Below are positions 1,903-23,008 of a stretch of DNA of 23,480 bases, in pieces. Under the pieces are notes generated by a model. That model made no database searches, was not told where the DNA came from, and saw only the letters and a list, made by a program, of their open reading frames with translations. Origin of the DNA: a virus; IMG/VR virus record IMGVR_UViG_3300010885_018120, positions 1 to 23,480 of that record; one strand, 5' to 3'. Numbering within the stretch: position 1 is the stretch's first letter; every line of letters begins with the position of its first letter. The position numbers and the translations under genes are program-made.

Positions 1903-2439
1903 ATGCGGAAAGCACTGGTATTTGCCGCCATTCTTCTTGCCTTGTCTGGGTGCAGATCTGCCGCCGCAGACCTCGGCAAGCCTGCCACGTTCGAAGACAT
2001 CATTGCTTTGAAAGGTGCCAGCCCCGCCCGCTGCTACGTCGAGACCAGCGTTGCCGGCACGTTCCTCCGTGCTGATCGGCAAGCCAACGTCGGTATTGGT
2101 GGCGGTTGCGACCTCACCCTTGCAAACATGGTTCTCGGTGGTGGCATTCGTGGCGACTGGAAAGACGGCGCTGGCACTGCGGCCGGCAGCATCTTCGCCA
2201 AGCTCGGCATCGCGATCAACAACGGTGCTGTGATTTATGGCCTGGCCGAGTGGAAGGTTCCTGAGTGGAAGATCAAGGACGCCGGCCAGCTCGGTCTCGG
2301 TGGCGGCGCTGAGCTCTCCCTCAACATCATTAACCCGAAGATTTCCATTTTTACTGAAGGCACATGGGCCGCCAGCAAGTTTGGCACGGCCACCAAAGAC
2401 GACGTGAACGCCCGTGTGGGCCTGCGGTACAAGTTCTGA
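1903..2439 (+). CDS. Exported outer-membrane beta-barrel-like protein
   Basis: The product is 178 residues. Residues 1-22 form a signal peptide (MRK, a hydrophobic core AALLFA-type, then LSGC at 14-17, a possible lipobox, and an AAA-D signal-peptidase-I-like site just after). The remainder alternates glycine and hydrophobic residues in strand-like runs (VGIGGGCDLTLANMVLGGGI; LGLGGGAELSLNI; ISIFTEGTWAA) and ends VGLRYKF, with the C-terminal phenylalanine typical of outer-membrane barrels recognised by BamA. About eight strands fit an Opa/Lom-sized barrel. Phage-encoded barrels such as lambda Lom can alter the host surface; a surface-change or superinfection-exclusion role is inference. AAAGG lies just before the start. 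Confidence 0.6.
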   Translation: MRKALVFAAILLALSGCRSAAADLGKPATFEDIIALKGASPARCYVETSVAGTFLRADRQANVGIGGGCDLTLANMVLGGGIRGDWKDGAGTAAGSIFAKLGIAINNGAVIYGLAEWKVPEWKIKDAGQLGLGGGAELSLNIINPKISIFTEGTWAASKFGTATKDDVNARVGLRYKF

Positions 2440-2549: not shown

Positions 2550-2632
2550 CCGCTGCAATCCTCGGAACGTGGTTGGTCGTTCTCATCATCGGCATCATCG
2601 CCGGTAATTACCTAGCGGAGCCTGACTGGTGA
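2546..2632 (+). CDS. Micro-membrane protein, 28 aa, TTG start
   Basis: A TTG at 2546 overlaps the previous stop as TTGA, and the frame closes at TGA 2630-2632, overlapping the next GTG. No ATG is available. The product (28 aa) is almost only one membrane helix, with ILGTWLVVLIIGIIAGNYL at its core and an acidic end (AEPDW). The start codon is chosen from the overlap pattern; translation by re-initiation after the upstream stop is likely. Whether it is truly expressed cannot be seen. Confidence 0.4.
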   Translation: MTAAILGTWLVVLIIGIIAGNYLAEPDW

Positions 2633-2814
2633 ACGCAGATCAACTCGTCTCGCAGCTCATGGGCATCATTCGCGCCCTACTCGCCGTGATGGCCCTTTTG
2701 CTGGGTGGCTTTGCCATTTGGAAGATCATCGGCACCGGCTTTTCAGTTGACGCCAAGACTGCCGCAGAGGTGGCCGCATGCTTCGCGATCACGTATTTTT
2801 GCCTAAGCAAGTAG
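2629..2814 (+). CDS. Small two-helix membrane protein, holin-like size
   Basis: It starts at GTG 2629 in a GTGA overlap with the previous stop and ends at TAG 2812-2814. The 61-residue product has one clear membrane helix (residues about 12-35, with ALLAVMALLLGGFAIW) and a second, weaker one (about 44-60, EVAACFAITYFCLS). Two helices and this length fit small class II holins, which pierce the inner membrane at lysis, but holins have little sequence conservation and no endolysin gene is next to it. The holin reading is inference. Confidence 0.5.
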   Translation: MNADQLVSQLMGIIRALLAVMALLLGGFAIWKIIGTGFSVDAKTAAEVAACFAITYFCLSK

Positions 2815-2822
2815 GATAGCCC

Positions 2823-3128
2823 ATGCACCGCCGCAGCTTTCTCCGCCGCCTGTTTGCCGCCGTGCCCGCCGCTGTTGCAGCCCCAGCCGTGGCCGCTGAG
2901 CTTGTGAAAGCTGCGGCGGTGCCTGTGGCCGGTGCAGTAGTTCCCCCGCCCATGCCGCCAGCGCTTCCGTCTCAGTACATCTACACCGGCACGAGCGGGG
3001 ACCACACGCATAGCTGGTGCAGCGTTGGTCCACCGCACACCCATACAGTGACGGTTCAAAACCGCACGCATACGCACAGCGGCGTTAACGGCTGGACCAA
3101 CAATGCGTCCACCTATGTCACCTTCTGA
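2823..3128 (+). CDS. Tat-exported His-rich small protein
   Basis: The product is 101 residues. The N-terminus MHRRSFLRRLFAAVPAAVAA has the twin-arginine motif R-R-x-F-L followed by a mildly hydrophobic Ala-rich helix and an AxA-like cleavage site near residue 25, so export in folded form by the Tat pathway is likely. The mature part has a Pro-rich linker (VVPPPMPPALPSQ) and then three HxH groups (DHTHSW, PHTHTV, RTHTHSG), suggesting metal binding. The HTHTVTV segment closely resembles segments of the tail fibre near 21210 and 21360. AGGAT sits just before the ATG. Function unknown; a periplasmic metal-binding or fibre-related protein is possible. Confidence 0.6.
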   Translation: MHRRSFLRRLFAAVPAAVAAPAVAAELVKAAAVPVAGAVVPPPMPPALPSQYIYTGTSGDHTHSWCSVGPPHTHTVTVQNRTHTHSGVNGWTNNASTYVTF

Positions 3129-3184
3129 AGTCGCCGCCCGCATCCGTGAGCGTATGAGCTCCTTGAAACTCTGGAGAGAACGCC

Positions 3185-4150
3185 ATGAAAGCATTACTTC
3201 GCGAAAGGTTCGGCGACCTTACCGCAACCGGACGGTTCTGGATGTGGGCCGGCCTGATCACGCTGGCTTGCTCGATGGGCATGGCTTACGACTACGGCTC
3301 CCAGGTCTCTTTCAAGCATGGCTTGATCATGGGCGCGTTGACCTTTGCAACGGCGTTCATCATCGAGGAAGCCTATAAGCACTGGCGGCAAGGTATGAAG
3401 GGCGTGGCTATCGGCCTTGCGCTCGTTTCCGTCCCCCTGTTCTGGCAGGAATCCAAAAGCCACATAGCCTACACCGCCGGATTCCGTGGCATCAACGTAG
3501 AGACCGCCAACCTACAGCAGACCAAGTACGACGATGGCAGAGACGACGTGGAGAAGGCCAAGGCCACCCTCGCGCTGTTTGAAAGCCGCCTCGCTGATCT
3601 GCAGAAGGCCAACGGATGGGCTACCACTGTGACGGCCGACGCTCTGCGGGCCAAGCTATCCAGCCTCAATCTTGCAATCGATCAGGAAGCCTCACGCGGC
3701 GGCTGCAAGGCCAAGTGCCTCGTTCGCACCCAAGAGCGCGACGACGTTGCCAGCCGCATCGCCGTGCTCGAGCGCGTGGACGAAACCACAAAGAAGATCG
3801 AAGCCACCAAGGCTGTGATCGCCAATTACAAAGAGAAGGCCGCAGCCGTCGAGCACAAGCCGTCCATCGTCAGTCACCAGAACACCACGCTGTTCAAGCT
3901 GGCATCGCTCGTCACGTCCGGCCAAGTCGAAGCGTCCCCCCTCCTGAAAGAAGTCGTGGAGCAAGAGAACACAATTGGTCTTGCTCTGATGCCTGTGATC
4001 CTTCCCGCGCTTAGCTTTTTCATGATGGGCCTTTATCGCCGTGAGGAAGACGAGACCCCGGCAAAGCCCCGCATAACCTCGCCCAGGCCAACCGTGATCG
4101 ACGGTAGCCGTTCCCTTATTGAAGCCGCCCGTTTGAAGCTCGCAGCATGA
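3185..4150 (+). CDS. Membrane protein with long periplasmic or cytoplasmic coiled coil
   Basis: The product is 321 residues. Hydrophobic segments at about 17-34, 43-61, 71-87 and 264-283 look like four membrane helices. Between the third and fourth lies a long charged helical region (about 110-222) with heptad-like spacing, broken by a Cys pair (GGCKAKC, 173-177). The C-terminus (RREEDETPAKPRIT onward) is hydrophilic. GGAGAG precedes the ATG. I do not recognise the family; a similar layout occurs in membrane-anchored phage accessory proteins, but a role in lysis timing or exclusion would be a guess. The stop overlaps the next ATG as ATGA. Confidence 0.65.
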   Translation: MKALLRERFGDLTATGRFWMWAGLITLACSMGMAYDYGSQVSFKHGLIMGALTFATAFIIEEAYKHWRQGMKGVAIGLALVSVPLFWQESKSHIAYTAGFRGINVETANLQQTKYDDGRDDVEKAKATLALFESRLADLQKANGWATTVTADALRAKLSSLNLAIDQEASRGGCKAKCLVRTQERDDVASRIAVLERVDETTKKIEATKAVIANYKEKAAAVEHKPSIVSHQNTTLFKLASLVTSGQVEASPLLKEVVEQENTIGLALMPVILPALSFFMMGLYRREEDETPAKPRITSPRPTVIDGSRSLIEAARLKLAA

Positions 4151-4476: not shown

Positions 4477-4892
4477 TGAGTGACGAAACCACTGCAAATG
4501 CAGAGGCAAAACAGAGAAGCCTTGCCAACCTCAAGCCTTTCCAGCCTGGCCAATCAGGCAATCCCGCTGGAAAGGCCAAGGGAACGCGGCACAAGATCAG
4601 CGAAGCGTTCCTTGAGGACATGCACGCGGCATGGAAGACAAAAGGCGCGGAAGCCATCGCCAAGGTTGTCGAAGAGCGACCCCACGAGTTCTTGAAGGTG
4701 GTTGCTGGTCTGCTGCCGCGAGATGTCAACGTCAAAATCGACAACCTGGCAGAGATAGATGACGCCGAACTCGCTGCTAGCCTCGCTGCCCTTAGATCCC
4801 TCGCGAATACCTGCGCTGCTGAAATTGCTCGAGCAGGAGCAATCGAAGCGGAAAGCACAGAACCGGCTCAAGGGTTACGCCCCGTACACTAA
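4476..4892 (+). CDS. Probable terminase small subunit (DUF5681-type)
   Basis: The product is 138 residues. Residues 20-34 (KPFQPGQSGNPAGKA) carry the F-x-P-G-Q-S-G-N-P-A-G motif of the DUF5681 family, found in phage proteins beside large terminases. The next part (SEAFLEDMHAAW ... FLKVVAGLLPRDVNVK) is helical, and the gene lies directly upstream of a P22-like large terminase, where the DNA-recognition subunit is expected. Small terminases bind the packaging site and hand DNA to the large subunit. The final 134 nt overlap the terL start in another frame. The start ATG 4476 abuts the parS-like repeat. Confidence 0.7.
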   Translation: MSDETTANAEAKQRSLANLKPFQPGQSGNPAGKAKGTRHKISEAFLEDMHAAWKTKGAEAIAKVVEERPHEFLKVVAGLLPRDVNVKIDNLAEIDDAELAASLAALRSLANTCAAEIARAGAIEAESTEPAQGLRPVH

Positions 4893-5490
4893 GCAGCGGG
4901 AGTTCCACGAAGCCGGCGCAGAGCATCACGAACGCTTGTTCATGGCCGGCAACCAGCTCGGCAAGACGTGGGCCGGTGGTTTTGAGACTGCAATGCATCT
5001 CACCGGCCGCTATCCTGACTGGTGGAGGGGCGCGACGTTCAACAAAGCCCCGATCATCTGGGCTTCTGGCGTAACCGGCGAGAGTACACGGGACAACCCG
5101 CAACGCGTTCTGATCGGAAACCCGCCCCGCCAAGACGATTGGGGAACCGGGACAATTCCAAAGGAATGCTTGCTTGATTTCGACCGTGCGATGGGTGTCC
5201 CGAACCTGCTCGACAACTACATCGTTCGCCATGGTGGCGGCGGCGATGTACAGGCCGGCGAGTCCATCGTGTACTTCAAAGCCTATGAGAAGGGCCGCGA
5301 AAAGTGGCAGGGGCCGACCATTGATGCTGTGTGGTTCGATGAGGAACCGCCGCTCGACATCTACACGGAAGGGCTGACGCGAACCAACCGAGGCCAGCGT
5401 AGCCAGTTCGCTTACATCACGTTCACGCCATTGCTTGGCATGAGCGAAGTCGTTTCGATGTTCCTGCTCGCTGAGAAATCTGATTCCTGA
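4759..5490 (+). CDS. Terminase large subunit, ATPase part (split gene)
   Basis: The 243-residue product matches the N-terminal half of P22 gp2. From memory of that family: APYTKQREF (41-49), Walker A AGNQLGKT (63-70), Walker B VWFDEEPP with Asp194 and Glu195 (191-198), and coupling motif TFTPL (221-225). It powers DNA translocation into the prohead at the portal. The frame has a stop (TAG 4756-4758) directly before ATG 4759, so no longer N-terminus is possible by ATG; residues 15-40 resemble the start of gp2, which supports the out-of-frame overlap with terS. It ends at UGA 5488-5490 just after the ATPase domain, where family members continue into the nuclease. The continuation lies in the same frame after about 51 nt. 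Confidence 0.8.
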   Translation: MTPNSLLASLPLDPSRIPALLKLLEQEQSKRKAQNRLKGYAPYTKQREFHEAGAEHHERLFMAGNQLGKTWAGGFETAMHLTGRYPDWWRGATFNKAPIIWASGVTGESTRDNPQRVLIGNPPRQDDWGTGTIPKECLLDFDRAMGVPNLLDNYIVRHGGGGDVQAGESIVYFKAYEKGREKWQGPTIDAVWFDEEPPLDIYTEGLTRTNRGQRSQFAYITFTPLLGMSEVVSMFLLAEKSDS

Positions 5491-5538
5491 AAGTGTCGCC
5501 GATCCCCGGGCTGACACCACACCACGAGGAATAAATTG
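5488..5538 (+). other. 51-nt interruption inside the large terminase coding frame
   Basis: The frame of the ATPase part runs Ser(TCC)-TGA and meets a second in-frame TGA at 5512-5514, then is open again from 5515. GTGTC (5493-5497) and GACAC (5513-5517) form a hairpin around a GC-rich loop with CCCGGG. GAGGA (5526-5530) lies 5 nt before TTG 5536 and 8 nt before the Ser codon TCT (5539-5541). Removing 5488-5538 joins TCC to CGC-CAC and restores the family-like sequence EKSD-S-RHVTSMTIDD, close in length to P22 gp2. Split gene, translational bypass, or decay are all open. Confidence 0.6.
5526..5530 (+). promoter_or_regulatory. Shine-Dalgarno site for the terminase nuclease part
   Basis: GAGGA ends 5 nt before TTG 5536, an ideal spacing, and supports independent translation of the nuclease frame from a TTG start. 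The same element would sit 8 nt before the putative landing codon in a bypass model. Confidence 0.55.
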
Positions 5539-6291
5539 TCTCGCCACGTCACTTCAATGACCATTGACGATGTGGAGCACTACAGCGCCGAGGAAAAGGC
5601 ACGCATCATTGCGAGCTATCCCGCGCACGAACGCGAAGCCCGCGCCAAAGGTATTCCCACGATGGGATCTGGCCGCGTGTTTCCGATTGCCGAGGAACTG
5701 ATAGCCGTCGACCCGCTGCCGATCCCTGATTTCTGGCCTCAGATCGTCGGCGTTGACTTCGGTATTGACCATCCGTTCGCCGCTGTGCGCTGCGCCTGGG
5801 ATCGGGATTCAGACACGGTGTACGTGACGCACTGCTACCGCATCAAAGGCGAAATCCCGCCCATCCATGCGGTGCAGATCAAAAGCTGGGGTAACTGGAT
5901 TCCCTGCGCTTGGCCGCATGACGGTCTGACTCGCGACAAGGGTTCAGGCGAGCAACTGAAAGAGCAGTACAAGACCCACGGCGTCAACATGCTGCCCGAC
6001 CGCGCCGAGCACGCCGAGGGCGGAAACGGTGTCGAAGCCGGTTTGATGGACATGCTCGAGCGCATGAGTACCAGCCGCTTCAAGGTGTTTCGGAACATGA
6101 ACGACTGGTTCGAAGAATTCCGCCTCTACCATCGTGTCGATGGCTTGATCGTAAAGGAACGTGACGACCTCATGAGTGCTACGCGCTACGCCGTTATGAT
6201 GTTGCGCTTTGCAACCACGCATCACCCGATTGAGAAGCCGCGTGAGCGTTACAACCGCCGTCGCGGAGGGGGCAGCGCGTGGGCGGCATGA
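5536..6291 (+). CDS. Terminase large subunit, nuclease part (split gene)
   Basis: The 251-residue product matches the C-terminal half of P22 gp2: EHYSAEEKARIIASYPAHER (14-33), REARAKGIPTMGSGRVF (33-49), and RNase H-like nuclease acidic residues at Asp74 (VDFGIDHP), Asp129 (WPHDG) and Asp210/Asp211 (DDLMSATRY). This domain cuts the concatemer at headful packaging. The frame is the same as the ATPase part. The chosen TTG start has GAGGA 5 nt upstream; ATG codons further in would remove conserved residues. Summed lengths (243 + about 249) approach the roughly 499 residues of gp2, so nothing conserved appears lost. Whether the two parts act as separate chains or a fused one is unknown. The stop overlaps the portal gene. 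Confidence 0.8.
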   Translation: MSRHVTSMTIDDVEHYSAEEKARIIASYPAHEREARAKGIPTMGSGRVFPIAEELIAVDPLPIPDFWPQIVGVDFGIDHPFAAVRCAWDRDSDTVYVTHCYRIKGEIPPIHAVQIKSWGNWIPCAWPHDGLTRDKGSGEQLKEQYKTHGVNMLPDRAEHAEGGNGVEAGLMDMLERMSTSRFKVFRNMNDWFEEFRLYHRVDGLIVKERDDLMSATRYAVMMLRFATTHHPIEKPRERYNRRRGGGSAWAA

Positions 6292-13737: not shown

Positions 13738-14663
13738 CGACCTCAAAGACCACGCAAAGCCAAAACAAGACGCAGAAAACCGACCCTTACGCACCGGCAC
13801 AACCGAGCATTGATCGCGGTCTGTCGGCGGCTAACGACGTGTTCACGCAGCGGCAAAACCAGCAGTTCTTCCCCGGCCAGACGTATGCCAACTTCGCTCC
13901 GGAAACCGAGCAGGCCCTAACGGGAATGACCAACCGCGCGCAAGCTGGCTCGCCTTTGGTTCGCGGCGCTCAGGGCATGGTCGGCGACACGCTCAACGGG
14001 AACTATCTCAGCGCGGGGAACCCGTACTTCTCGCAGATGTCAGACCGGATCACATCTGAGGTTCTGCCGTCGATCACGTCGCAGTGGGCCAAGGCTGGCC
14101 GCGGCACGGGCAATAACGAAGTGGTGCAGGCGGCATCACGCGGGCTTGGCGATTCTATCGGGCAGCTCGCCTATCAGAACTACGGCAAAGAGCGCTCGAA
14201 CCAGATGCAAGCGGCCGGCATGGCGCCGGGGCTCGCCAATCAGGACTATGCGGACCTTGAACGATTGGCCAACGTCGGCCAGATGCGGCAGGACCAGAGT
14301 CAGCGGGGTATCGACGAACAGATGGCGCGCTATCAGTTCGACCAGGACCGCGGCGCAAACGCCTTGCGGGAGTTCCAAGGCTTTACGAACCCGGTGGCGC
14401 AGTTGGGGCAGACCTCGACAAGTCAGGGCACGACGACGCAGCAACAGCAGCAAACCCCGGTTCAGACGGCAATCGGTGCAGGCCTGATGGGTGCGAGCCT
14501 GTTCGGCGGATCGGGCCCCATGGCTGGAATGTTCGGCGGATCGGGCCCCATGGCTGGAATGTTCGGCGGAATGGGCGGCAGCACGGGCGGTCTCAGCGCT
14601 GGCATGGTGCAGGCGATGCAGAACAATCCGCAGATGCAAGCACTCGCGTTCGGTGGTCGCTGA
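13734..14663 (+). CDS. Gln/Gly-rich virion protein, ejection-module candidate
   Basis: ATG 13734 overlaps the acetyltransferase stop as ATGA; longer starts would run over that gene. The 309-residue product has a polar Thr/Gln/Lys-rich start, a helical middle (NQQFFPGQTYANFAPETEQA; YFSQMSDRITSEVLPSITSQ), a Gln-rich stretch (TTTQQQQQTP) and a hydrophobic Gly/Met/Phe-rich end with a 10-residue repeat (FGGSGPMAGM). It directly precedes the three long ejection-type genes and occupies the gp14 interval of P22, so a minor virion or ejection-assembly role is likely. The low-complexity hydrophobic tail might interact with membrane. The family is not recognised by motif. Confidence 0.55.
   Translation: MTTSKTTQSQNKTQKTDPYAPAQPSIDRGLSAANDVFTQRQNQQFFPGQTYANFAPETEQALTGMTNRAQAGSPLVRGAQGMVGDTLNGNYLSAGNPYFSQMSDRITSEVLPSITSQWAKAGRGTGNNEVVQAASRGLGDSIGQLAYQNYGKERSNQMQAAGMAPGLANQDYADLERLANVGQMRQDQSQRGIDEQMARYQFDQDRGANALREFQGFTNPVAQLGQTSTSQGTTTQQQQQTPVQTAIGAGLMGASLFGGSGPMAGMFGGSGPMAGMFGGMGGSTGGLSAGMVQAMQNNPQMQALAFGGR
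14501..14570 (+). repeat. 30-nt perfect tandem repeat, 2.3 copies, in frame
   Basis: The units 14501-14530 and 14531-14560 are identical (each begins GTTCGGCGGATCGGGCCCCA and ends with GGAAT), followed by a 10-nt partial copy (14561-14570). The unit is a multiple of three, so copy-number change would add or drop ten residues (FGGSGPMAGM) without a frameshift. It lies in the hydrophobic C-terminal part of the virion protein. Confidence 0.85.
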
Positions 14664-16666
14664 TGGGGCTACTCCCCGAGTTCAACACACGCATTCGGGC
14701 GCTGATGGCGGCGGCGCAGGAAGCCGGCCAAGACCCGCGCATTGTGTCGGGCTACAGATCCGAGGCGGACCAGGCTCGAGCGATCAACAGCGTATCGCAA
14801 CGTGTCAACGGCAGGCCCGCATCGATTATAGACTATTCGCGGGGCATTCCTGGCTATGCGGCTCCGGTCGGCGGCAGCATGCACCAGCGCGGCGAGGCGG
14901 TTGATTTCGGCACGGGGCCGTCGCTCGATTGGATGCGCCAGAACGCGGCATCTTACGGCGTTCGGTTCCCCGAACGCCTAGCCAAGTCAGATCCGGCTCA
15001 CGCCGCGGTTAACCCCGACTTCTGGGGGCCAGTTCAAGACCCGAACGACAGAGGACTTCCGGTCGCGGTTCCACCGTCATCGCAGCCCGATCCCGCCAAG
15101 ACCGCCAACTATCAGCCCAAGCGCGGCGGAATGAGCGCAGCACAACCGATGATGATGCTCGGTGGGCCGAAAGACCAGACAGCAGGAGCCCCAGAAATGG
15201 CCCTATACGACCCGCAATCACAGCAGGGGTTTAGCCTCGATAATTGGGTATCGTCGCCACTGTTTCAGATGGGGGCCGGCGTTCTCGGTGCGCCCAACAT
15301 CGGGGAAGGGCTTATGCAGGGCTCGCAGGCGGCGAGTCAGATGCAGACTGCTGGGCTGCGCAACAACGCTCTTCGTCAGCAGATGGAGCAGAAAAGGCGA
15401 CAGGAAGCGGCTTGGAATACGATGTTCGCAGGTGGCCAGCCCAACATGGCGCATCCGATGCTAAAGGATTTGCCGCCTGACATGGTTGGATTGGCTCAAG
15501 TGATGGGGCCAGAAGCGGGCCTTTCTGCGTTGCAAGAGTACGCAATGAAGCGGCACGGTTCAGAGCTGGCGCGTAGGGCGGAGGTTGAGAAGATCAAAGC
15601 CGTTAAGGACTACGAATCAGAAATGAAGGCAAAGGACCTTGAGCGTATGATGGGTGCGCTCAGTCCAATGTTTGGCGGGCAGGCGGCACCGGCATCTTCA
15701 ATATCCGCGCCATCGGCTTTGGCCCCGCCATTTGGGCAGACGTCGACGCCGATGGCGGGCACGCAGATTGTGCCACAGCAGACAGCATCGCTCCCACAGG
15801 CCCCGACAACAGCGCAACCGGGAAACGCGATCCAGCCAACAGCGCCGGCATTTGATGACAACATGAAGCGGCTGGCTATTGCGCGATTGCAGCTCGGCGA
15901 TAGCAAGGGTGCGCTTGAGATTTATGAGAAGGCACTAGAGGCCGCGCAGGTTCCTGGAAGAGAAGCGGCGAAAACGCTGGCTGTTGAGCGGTCAAAAACA
16001 CAGGCCGGCGATGAGAAATCGACGAAAGCCGCGCGGGATATGTGGGGACTTCTTGATACGCTCGACCGCGCCGGGAACGCGCTTGGCGGTTCTCGACTTG
16101 AAGCGGCGGCATCGCCAACGCTAGATTCTTGGTTCGGTCGCAACGTGCTGAGATATGGGCAGGACCAAGCCTATAACGACCGGCTAAAGCTAAAGGGCAT
16201 GGCCGACAGTATTGTCCTTCAAGCACGAGAAACCCAGCGAGGTCTTGGCCAGTTGACAGAGGGCGAGCAGGCAACCCTTGAGCGCGCATATACCGGCATG
16301 ATGTCTGCCACGAGTGCGGAAGACTTGCGGCAAGGCATAGAGACCGTTCGCTACGTCCTGTCTAAGAAAATCCCAGAACAGTCGACCTACGTGCCGTCGT
16401 GGATAACGAAACTCGAAGGCGAGCAAAAAGCGCGACAGGAAAAAACGGCAGCATCTCCAGCAGCGCCAACGCGGCAAGATATGCGGCCGCCGACAGGCGA
16501 AGCAACGCGCTCTGTCGATACGTTGAGTGCGGATTTAAACGGAAAGGATGTCTACGACAGCAAGACAGGCCAATGGGGCAAGGTTCTCAATGGAGAATTT
16601 GTCTCGCGCCGGCAGATGATGCAAGGCGAAGCCAAGCGCAAGCTATTGCAGGGAGCGGTTAACTGA
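14663..16666 (+). CDS. Ejection protein with N-terminal M15 peptidase domain
   Basis: The 667-residue product begins with a D-Ala-D-Ala carboxypeptidase/endolysin-type M15 domain (about 1-125): IVSGYRSEADQARAI, then SMHQRGEAVDFG with zinc-ligand pattern His74-x6-Asp81, and SDPAHAAVNPDFWG with Asp110-x2-His113 in the place of the usual catalytic acid and third ligand. Such domains cut peptidoglycan cross-bridges. The rest is long, helical and low in complexity, with RLKLKGMADSIVLQARETQR and GLGQLTEGEQATLERAYTGM near the C-terminus, a segment common in phage internal virion proteins. It would be packaged in the head and expelled to open a path through the wall. ATG 14663 overlaps the previous stop (TGATG). 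Confidence 0.65.
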   Translation: MGLLPEFNTRIRALMAAAQEAGQDPRIVSGYRSEADQARAINSVSQRVNGRPASIIDYSRGIPGYAAPVGGSMHQRGEAVDFGTGPSLDWMRQNAASYGVRFPERLAKSDPAHAAVNPDFWGPVQDPNDRGLPVAVPPSSQPDPAKTANYQPKRGGMSAAQPMMMLGGPKDQTAGAPEMALYDPQSQQGFSLDNWVSSPLFQMGAGVLGAPNIGEGLMQGSQAASQMQTAGLRNNALRQQMEQKRRQEAAWNTMFAGGQPNMAHPMLKDLPPDMVGLAQVMGPEAGLSALQEYAMKRHGSELARRAEVEKIKAVKDYESEMKAKDLERMMGALSPMFGGQAAPASSISAPSALAPPFGQTSTPMAGTQIVPQQTASLPQAPTTAQPGNAIQPTAPAFDDNMKRLAIARLQLGDSKGALEIYEKALEAAQVPGREAAKTLAVERSKTQAGDEKSTKAARDMWGLLDTLDRAGNALGGSRLEAAASPTLDSWFGRNVLRYGQDQAYNDRLKLKGMADSIVLQARETQRGLGQLTEGEQATLERAYTGMMSATSAEDLRQGIETVRYVLSKKIPEQSTYVPSWITKLEGEQKARQEKTAASPAAPTRQDMRPPTGEATRSVDTLSADLNGKDVYDSKTGQWGKVLNGEFVSRRQMMQGEAKRKLLQGAVN

Positions 16667-20494: not shown

Positions 20495-23008
20495 ATGGCC
20501 GAACTCGACGACCTGTCAACGACAGACGATTCGAATACCGCACGCTTCCCCGAAAACATGCAGTTCCGGCAGGTCAACGATGCCGGCCGCGAACTCGAGG
20601 GGTTGCTGGCGCGGCATCACAAAGACACGAACGGATCGTTGACCGCCGGTGGGTCCTCTAACGTGTTTACGATCACGCCCAACCGGACCATAACCGCATA
20701 CACTGACGCGCTTGTGCTTGCCTTCACGGCAAACCATACGACGACAGGTCCAACGACGCTGAACGTCAGCGGCCTCGGAGCTAAGCCGGTCAAATCGGCA
20801 AATGGCTCGGCGCTGACGGGTGGCGAGATCGTGTCTGGCCAGAAGGTGCGCGTCGTATATAGAGCGTCAACAGATGATTTCCAGATCGAGGGCGGCGCAG
20901 CGCCAAGCCTCACCTCGCAATCCATCACCGGAAGCCTGATCAAGATCGGCACGCCCGTCCTGTCGATGTCGCCAACCCCGGCCACGGGATACATTCGGCT
21001 GACTCAGACGACCCAGACGCTCAATAAGGCGGATTGGCCTGAACTTAACACCTACTTGTCTGGCATATCGTACCCGTGGGGCTCGGCCTCAACGACGTTC
21101 AACCTTCCCCCGGCGGCCGGCTACTTCCTGCGCTTTGCTGCGACGAGCTCGGCGATCGATACGAGCGGCGCACGCGCGGCAGGATCGACCCAAACCGATC
21201 AGAACAAGGCGCACACGCATACGGTAACCGCGTCGGGAACAACGGCGAATGATAACCATCAACACCCGTACAACAAGCCGGTATTCCAAGGGCTGGTCCC
21301 AAGCACTGGCTCAGGCGGGCAGCTCAACTCAATAGCGACAGCACTCACGGACGGATATAATCACACACACACCGTCACCGTGTCAGGCACCGCCGCAAGC
21401 GATGGCGGCGACGAGGTGCGCGTCAAGAACGTCGCTTTCCATCTCGACGTTTATGCCTCGTCCACGTTGGCGGCGGGAACGCTCGGCGTGTTCGGCTTCC
21501 CCTACGCCTGGGATACCGGCACGACCGCTGCCGATCCAAGCACGAGCAGGGTTCGCGTCAACAACGCCACCCTTGCCTCGGCTACCGCGATCTACATCAG
21601 CGAAACGGACGGTTGGAGCGTTAATATATCTGGCACCATTGCGGCGGTGACTGAGGATTCAATCGTCAAGATTACCAAGATCGGCGCACCGGCCAATGTG
21701 CTGGTGGCGTCGGTCACTGCGGCCCCTACTGACGCCGGCAGCTATCGCTCAATTCCGATTACGGTTTTGACTGCGGCAGGCTCATTTTCCTCGAGCGATA
21801 GTCTCGCTGTTGAGTTCGTTATCGCCGGAACCGGGGCGGACGGAGCGGCTGGCGCAGACGGCGGCGGTCTCAAGTGGACTTTCGACAGCTCAACGACGAC
21901 GGCAGCCGACCCCGGAGCGGGGGATTTACGTTTCAATAATGCCACGCTGTCGAGTGCAACGGAACTGTCGATATCGTATCAGAGTGACGAGGCCGGAAAT
22001 CCTGATGTCAACAGTTTTGTCAAGTCGTGGGACGACTCGACGAATACTGCGCATTATGGGACGTTGGTCGTAAGGAAGAACGGCGATCCAGACACGTTCT
22101 GCGTGTTCAACATCACCTCAAGCATCACTGACGGGACTACCTACGGGCGGTTCACGATCTCCTATGTTAGCCCAGCCACGCCGCCGACATTCACCAACGG
22201 CGATGTTCTGTCGATACTGTTTGTTCGCACCGGCAACAAGGGGACGGATGGTGCAGGCGCGGGTGATGTGGTTGGACCGGCCGCGTCGATTGATAGTGAG
22301 ATTGCGCTTTACAGCGGAACCACCGGAAAGCTGCTCAAGCGAGCGACCACATCAGGTCTGTTAAAGGCAACGTCCGGCGTTCTCTCGGCCGCAGCGGCTG
22401 GCACGGATTACGTCGCGGCAACGACGGGATCTGCTGTTCAAAAGGCAAGCTCCGGTGGGCTTACTGCTGCCGCGGCGACAGACCTTGGCGCCGGCTTGCA
22501 TGTCATTTACGTACCCGCAACAGCGATGGTCTCGCGCACGACCAACGGTGCCGCGGCGGGAACCGTCGAGACCACGACAAACAAAGTGATGCTGAAAACG
22601 CTTGATTTTGACACGACTACGCAGGAGTTTGCCCAGTTTTCTGTTAGAATGCCGAAGTCGTGGAATGAAGGCACTGTTACGGCTGCGTTTACGTGGAGCC
22701 ACGCTTCGACAACGACCAACTTTGGTGTGGTGTGGGCTCTGGAAGGTGTTGCGCTGTCTGACGATGACGCAGGAGATGCAGCATTCGGGACGTTGCAACA
22801 GATTGCCGACACGGGCGGGACGACAAACGATATTTACGTTTCCGGTGCCACGCCGGCTATCACGATCGCGGGCACACCAGCGGCCGAAGATTGGGTCGTG
22901 TTTCAAATCAAGCGCGTTCCGTCGGATGGTTCGGACACCATGGCAATCGATGCGAGATTGCATGGCGTGACGCTTTATTTCACCACTGATGCGATAACGG
23001 ACGCGTGA
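20495..23008 (+). CDS. Tail fibre with collar, HxH, repeat and collagen-like segments
   Basis: The 837-residue product has, in order: an N-terminal region expected to attach to the tail (MAELDDLSTTDDSNTARFPE); a beta-rich part; a tail-collar-like segment (about 160-215, GYIRLTQTTQTLNKADWPEL then SASTTFNLPPAAGYFLRF); HxH metal-binding runs (KAHTHTVTASG, NHTHTVTVSG), as in T4-like fibre tips; two related beta domains; collagen-like Gly-x-x stretches (GTGADGAAGADGGG, TGNKGTDGAGAG); and a C-terminal beta domain containing FAQFSVRMPKSWNEGTVTAA and ending LHGVTLYFTTDAITDA. It would form a trimer that binds the host surface. Receptor unknown. Its stop shares an A with the next ATG. Confidence 0.7.
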   Translation: MAELDDLSTTDDSNTARFPENMQFRQVNDAGRELEGLLARHHKDTNGSLTAGGSSNVFTITPNRTITAYTDALVLAFTANHTTTGPTTLNVSGLGAKPVKSANGSALTGGEIVSGQKVRVVYRASTDDFQIEGGAAPSLTSQSITGSLIKIGTPVLSMSPTPATGYIRLTQTTQTLNKADWPELNTYLSGISYPWGSASTTFNLPPAAGYFLRFAATSSAIDTSGARAAGSTQTDQNKAHTHTVTASGTTANDNHQHPYNKPVFQGLVPSTGSGGQLNSIATALTDGYNHTHTVTVSGTAASDGGDEVRVKNVAFHLDVYASSTLAAGTLGVFGFPYAWDTGTTAADPSTSRVRVNNATLASATAIYISETDGWSVNISGTIAAVTEDSIVKITKIGAPANVLVASVTAAPTDAGSYRSIPITVLTAAGSFSSSDSLAVEFVIAGTGADGAAGADGGGLKWTFDSSTTTAADPGAGDLRFNNATLSSATELSISYQSDEAGNPDVNSFVKSWDDSTNTAHYGTLVVRKNGDPDTFCVFNITSSITDGTTYGRFTISYVSPATPPTFTNGDVLSILFVRTGNKGTDGAGAGDVVGPAASIDSEIALYSGTTGKLLKRATTSGLLKATSGVLSAAAAGTDYVAATTGSAVQKASSGGLTAAAATDLGAGLHVIYVPATAMVSRTTNGAAAGTVETTTNKVMLKTLDFDTTTQEFAQFSVRMPKSWNEGTVTAAFTWSHASTTTNFGVVWALEGVALSDDDAGDAAFGTLQQIADTGGTTNDIYVSGATPAITIAGTPAAEDWVVFQIKRVPSDGSDTMAIDARLHGVTLYFTTDAITDA
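21503..22234 (+). repeat. Duplicated fibre domain (protein-level repeat)
   Basis: Two segments of about 110-120 residues, encoded by about 21503-21832 and 21869-22234, share an opening pattern (W-x-x-x-x-T-T-A-A-D-P ... R-x-N-N-A-T-L-x-S-A-T-x-x-x-I-S) and each ends in a strand before a Gly-rich collagen-like run. The DNA has diverged, so this is an old duplication. Boundaries are approximate. Confidence 0.6.

Follow-up and report, generated by a model that had tools for sequence, protein, structure and literature searches.

The stretch of DNA analysed here, referred to throughout as the window, is an IMG/VR virus record of 23,480 bases with a podovirus-like late region. On its forward strand, at positions 2823 to 3128 and just where the earlier note had placed it, lies an open reading frame of 101 codons with an ATG start, whose 101-residue product we call P0001. 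An AGGA ribosome-binding site (2813–2816, forward strand) stands 6 nt 5′ of the ATG, and an identical copy of the protein is encoded in a second record, IMGVR_UViG_3300027754_000687. The gene directly 5′ (2629–2814, forward strand) encodes a 61-residue membrane protein. Together they belong to a cassette that runs from a 178-residue exported, outer-membrane-like protein (1903–2439, forward strand) through small membrane ORFs and P0001 to a 321-residue multi-span membrane protein (3185–4150, forward strand), followed by a DUF5681 protein, the probable small terminase, and terL. P0001 is grouped with envelope-type genes, and the tail genes lie elsewhere, at 10.5–23 kb. The 1903–2439 product, a phage-borne protein of the same cassette with a signal peptide and a C-terminal phenylalanine, is itself a possible envelope modifier.

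Judged by the portal protein, Rhizobium phage RHph_Y1_10 and Microcystis phage Mae-JY35 are among the isolated relatives of the virus. A large terminase (TerL) 80% identical to that of the window is found on a Hyphomicrobiaceae MAG contig, so a bacterium of the Hyphomicrobiales is the likely host. The window's large terminase is itself divided between two ORFs, 4759–5490 and 5536–6291, which correspond to the ATPase (Terminase_6N) and the nuclease (Terminase_6C), and the split falls at the same point across a clade comprising the window, L006, L007, L010, L014–L019, and L044. The two ORFs share a stop/start overlap, AATGA, in L007, L014, and L015, and are separated by about 480 nt more in L010; the gene is continuous in L025, L031, and L035. 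A limited literature search for a split terminase returned no paper. Further downstream, positions 14663–16666 encode a 667-residue protein in which a VanY-type peptidase domain (E 1.6e-8) at the N terminus is joined to a long structural-like body; it is possibly a virion-associated lysin.

Two related viral records, L006 and L007, whose TerL sequences match that of the window at 90–92%, keep the first and last genes of the cassette (36–43%) and are missing the P0001 gene, which is therefore an accessory insertion. The outer-membrane-like protein matches its L006 counterpart at 43%, and the 321-residue membrane protein matches at 41% in L007 and 36% in L006. The right edge of the insertion is marked by a conserved block at 3114–3157 (forward strand), overlapping the last codons of P0001, that aligns with L007 1183–1226 (score 48, shuffles at most 29) and with L006 4424–4472 (score 43, shuffles at most 27). 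In both relatives this block lies directly 3′ of a small membrane gene. A short overlapping ORF (MSPSEVAARIRERMSSLKLWRER...) spans 3115–3184, beginning within the 3′ end of the P0001 gene, and similar short ORFs in L007 (MVPQVIAARTRERLTKWRL...) and L006 (MGPQVIAARTCERIRLKRL...) begin within their small membrane gene; what is conserved here could be either a very small gene or an element of the DNA itself. Searches of IMG/VR, GTDB genomes, phages, and plasmids for close relatives of P0001 returned only the identical copy. Among 23 TerL- or portal-related records, many of them fragments, a homologue occurs in a single one, that of the near-identical virus, and absence is firm only in those records where the insertion site is visible. 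No short HxH protein emerged when the twin-arginine and HTH pattern was sought in 385 class-level and 397 order-level genomes around the Hyphomicrobiaceae MAG. In another sub-clade, a histidine-rich phage protein of 116 residues (ending in HHHHLAAMAHHAHAHGSAR) precedes terL (L026 1761–2111; L028 and L029 4630–4980); it has no signal and is unrelated in sequence to P0001.

The N terminus of P0001 carries a putative Tat signal (residues 1–25, MHRRSFLRRLFAAVPAAVAAPAVAA; 2823–2897, forward strand), identified by motif and hydropathy, in which an RRSFL twin-arginine motif precedes an Ala-rich, weakly hydrophobic h-region (mean hydropathy ≈2.0) and an AxA site. The window contains a single match to ATG-x-R-R-x-F-[LF]-x-R, a pattern that none of 100 shuffles produced, and among 1497 mechanically defined ORFs from TerL-related loci, only the identical copy of P0001 fits M-x(0,12)-RRxF[LIVM] followed by AxA. 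With the curated Tat model TIGR01409 the score is 6.9 bits, short of the cutoff at 16.7. The signal is thus best described as a good consensus match on which the curated model makes no call, and with that qualification the earlier note's identification of a twin-arginine signal on a 101-residue protein holds.

The remainder of the protein begins with an Ala/Pro-rich linker (residues 26–50; 2898–2972, forward strand) and contains, as had been noted, three HxH groups. They start at residues 61, 72, and 83, and so define an exact 11-residue period, a feature absent from the earlier note. The three consecutive units, all on the forward strand, are HTHSWCSVGPP (residues 61–71; 3003–3035), HTHTVTVQNRT (residues 72–82; 3036–3068), and HTHSGVNGWTN (residues 83–93; 3069–3101). 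When the mature part was shuffled, at least three HxH groups arose in 0.27% of cases, equally spaced HxH groups in 0.08%, and a 7-mer in common with the phage's tail fibre in 0.07%; because shuffles so rarely reproduce it, the pattern exceeds what composition gives. In IMG/VR, three HTH groups with this period occur in 32 stretches, of which the readable ones are mostly long fibre or tail-tip proteins (e.g., L054, with PAHTHNVSINIPAHTHNVSINIPAHTH, L058, and L061) and the remainder mostly repeat or out-of-frame DNA. By this comparison, the mature part of P0001 indeed resembles a short repeat from a fibre tip. In T4 gp37, HxH motifs bind iron, and such motifs are found again in the fibres of other phages (PMC11705849).

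P0001 finds no match in Pfam, NCBIfam, PHROGs, PDB sequences, or PADLOC, libraries that cover families, structures, and defence systems; against the fibre families of PHROGs and Pfam, the best PHROG reaches E 0.055, which is not significant. Two candidate matches were rejected: a Yersinia phage fibre (E 2), an HxH low-complexity match, and Rhodococcus Madraxi gp91 (E 8), a chance GDHxHxxCSVG stretch.

The heptapeptide HTHTVTV, which the earlier note had seen nearly repeated in the tail fibre near 21210 and 21360, indeed recurs there. The fibre (20495–23008, forward strand), considered here for comparison only, has its three HxH groups at residues 240, 255, and 290 (window positions 21212, 21257, and 21362), all within a region at residues ≈140–315 that resembles tail-collar proteins; HTHTVT is found at residue 240 and the exact HTHTVTV at residue 290. 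The likeness extends little further, with a best protein match of 21 bits, an HxH spacing of 15/35 in the fibre versus 11/11 in P0001, and a DNA alignment that shows no similarity (its score is 14, where shuffles reach 18, and it falls off the HTH stretch). A duplication of P0001 from the phage's own fibre was rejected on the absence of a DNA match. Searches for HTHTVTV plus HTH pick out proteins of fibre or tail-tip-like type in unrelated viruses, so the shared heptapeptide is not evidence of a link between the two genes, and HTHTVTV is a common solution in sequence of this kind. As to the co-occurrence that the earlier note proposed to look for, homologues of the N-terminal part of the fibre are present in five other related records that lack a P0001 homologue, among them the complete record of Mae-JY35, which has an HxH collar fibre and no P0001-like gene. 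At its other end, the fibre's C-terminal 167 residues (671–837; window 22505–23008), and not the rest of it, share 72% identity with gp73/gp74 of EBPR siphovirus 2, suggesting a swapped receptor-binding end.

Scans for RRxFL, AxA, and HTH, which require particular codons and distances and miss relatives outside these, yielded one real case besides the window virus. This protein, P0003 (92 residues, MNSRRSFLRILG...GSHTHTYSGSADPSHTHTIS; L120 4550–4828), has an SRRSFLR signal and two HTHT units, and shares RRSFLR and AxA with P0001. Its gene has start/stop overlaps with both neighbours. In L120, a 6.5-kb fragment whose terminase differs clearly in sequence from the window's, a DUF5681 protein and terL come two genes 3′ of the P0003 gene. 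The similarity between the two proteins is 34% over 76 residues (E 5e-5), and with the pattern-imposed residues held fixed, their full-length score of 103 exceeds all 3000 shuffles (maximum 87). The parts score less distinctively, the mature region alone being equalled by 5 of 3000 shuffles and the signal alone by 9 of 3000. P0003 is thus a probable homologue of P0001 in the same kind of slot, giving a family of two independent members. A search with P0003 in genomes of the same class gave borderline matches only, mostly within long frames.

Taken together, these observations lead us to favour, tentatively, an envelope protein of the moron type: P0001 would be exported through Tat, its mature part would be a short metal repeat of the fibre HxH kind, and it would act in the envelope of the host. 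We regard this reading as quite possible and far from assured. The evidence for an envelope function consists of the gene's position and its signal. On this model, an accessory late gene has been inserted into the cassette of envelope genes that precedes the terminase genes, and its product would be exported by the host Tat system, with removal of the signal near residue 25. The resulting 76-residue protein would comprise the Pro-rich linker followed by the three 11-residue HTH repeats of fibre-tip type. By analogy with fibre HxH sites, P0001 is probably trimeric: three chains would each contribute a His pair to octahedral metal sites, forming a short trimer, stacked and stapled by metal. The use of Tat over Sec would be explained if the protein folds or takes up its metal in the cytoplasm. 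The site of action would be the periplasm or envelope of the host cell, whether infected or lysogenic, rather than the phage's own fibre, and the role might be, speculatively, superinfection exclusion or metal handling. A broader proposal, that P0001 and P0003 represent a new family of mini-fibre modules, Tat-exported and metal-stapled, which are encoded just before the terminase genes in phages of different terminase lineages and act in the host periplasm after cytoplasmic folding and metal loading, strikes us as conceivable and rather doubtful.

Several other readings account for part of these data. P0001 could be a plain periplasmic metal binder or buffer, monomeric and partly disordered, whose resemblance to fibres would have arisen by convergence, the sequence being simple and rich in His and Thr. 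Metal cofactors are frequent in Tat substrates, and this reading would suit both the low-complexity composition of P0001 and an AlphaFold monomer prediction for P0001, made with two sequences, that is too poor to use (pLDDT 44.5). However, a simple His-rich buffer has no need of the degree of order seen in the exact 11-residue period and in the layout of linker and repeats, and we consider this reading unlikely. An assignment to a lysis cassette, with P0001 as a small, exported, Pro-rich factor (spanin-like or a lysis regulator) that acts together with the small membrane proteins encoded next to it, draws on the run of such ORFs 5′ of the gene, on the Pro-rich linker, and on a LysM protein encoded ≈1 kb 5′ of the P0003 gene in L120. 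P0001 has neither a C-terminal anchor nor the lipobox cysteine expected at the signal cleavage site of an Rz1-type o-spanin, its only cysteine being residue 66 in the HxH region; moreover, its gene is missing from close relatives that must also lyse, and a lysis function leaves the HxH repeat unexplained. Such a role is accordingly improbable. Poorer still is the prospect that P0001 is a virion or structural mini-fibre, its N terminus being a hydrophobic anchor or propeptide instead of a Tat signal: fibre tips typically have HTH repeats of period 11 and the TIGR01409 cutoff is not reached, yet the gene sits among envelope-type genes away from the tail genes, and RRSFLR and AxA are present in both P0001 and P0003. 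Very unlikely, finally, is the earlier note's model of an exported mimic of the metal site of the phage's own fibre, for which the common heptapeptide speaks and against which stand the DNA comparison, the HxH spacing, the use of HTHTVTV by unrelated fibres, and Mae-JY35, as well as the destination of a Tat substrate, because delivery to the periplasm is at odds with a decoy or receptor blocker that must act outside the cell, where the receptors are, and cytoplasmic fibre assembly argues against a folding aid. What survives of that model is a probably exported protein with fibre-type HxH groups, of the period-11 kind seen in the fibres of other phages.

As it stands, P0001 is one rare accessory gene. 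Were the favoured envelope reading correct in both export and metal binding, a fibre-tip building block would have been reused as a stand-alone envelope protein, providing a small metal-binding module that is easy to test, as well as a candidate modifier of the host envelope. Export would also mean that a phage product travels by the Tat pathway of its host, for which a limited literature search found no described case.

The features of P0001 can be set against three known systems. Among lambdoid phages, Bor of lambda is an exported moron placed before the terminase genes, and P0001 is likewise a small, exported-type accessory gene product encoded 5′ of the terminase and missing from close relatives; it differs in not being a lipoprotein, has a Tat-like signal, and bears no known sequence relation to these morons. 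With Tat-signal proteins (TIGR01409, PF10518, and TIGR02811), it shares RRxFL, a weakly hydrophobic Ala-rich core, and AxA, but P0001 scores under the TIGR01409 cutoff and P0003 under those of PF10518 and TIGR02811, and both are phage-borne. Like the fibre-tip HxH metal repeats of T4 gp37 type, including Alteromonas phage R22Y gp12 (PMC11705849), P0001 contains repeated HxH pairs; in contrast to them, it is free-standing, has a mature part of fewer than 80 residues, carries an export signal, and is encoded outside the tail gene block.
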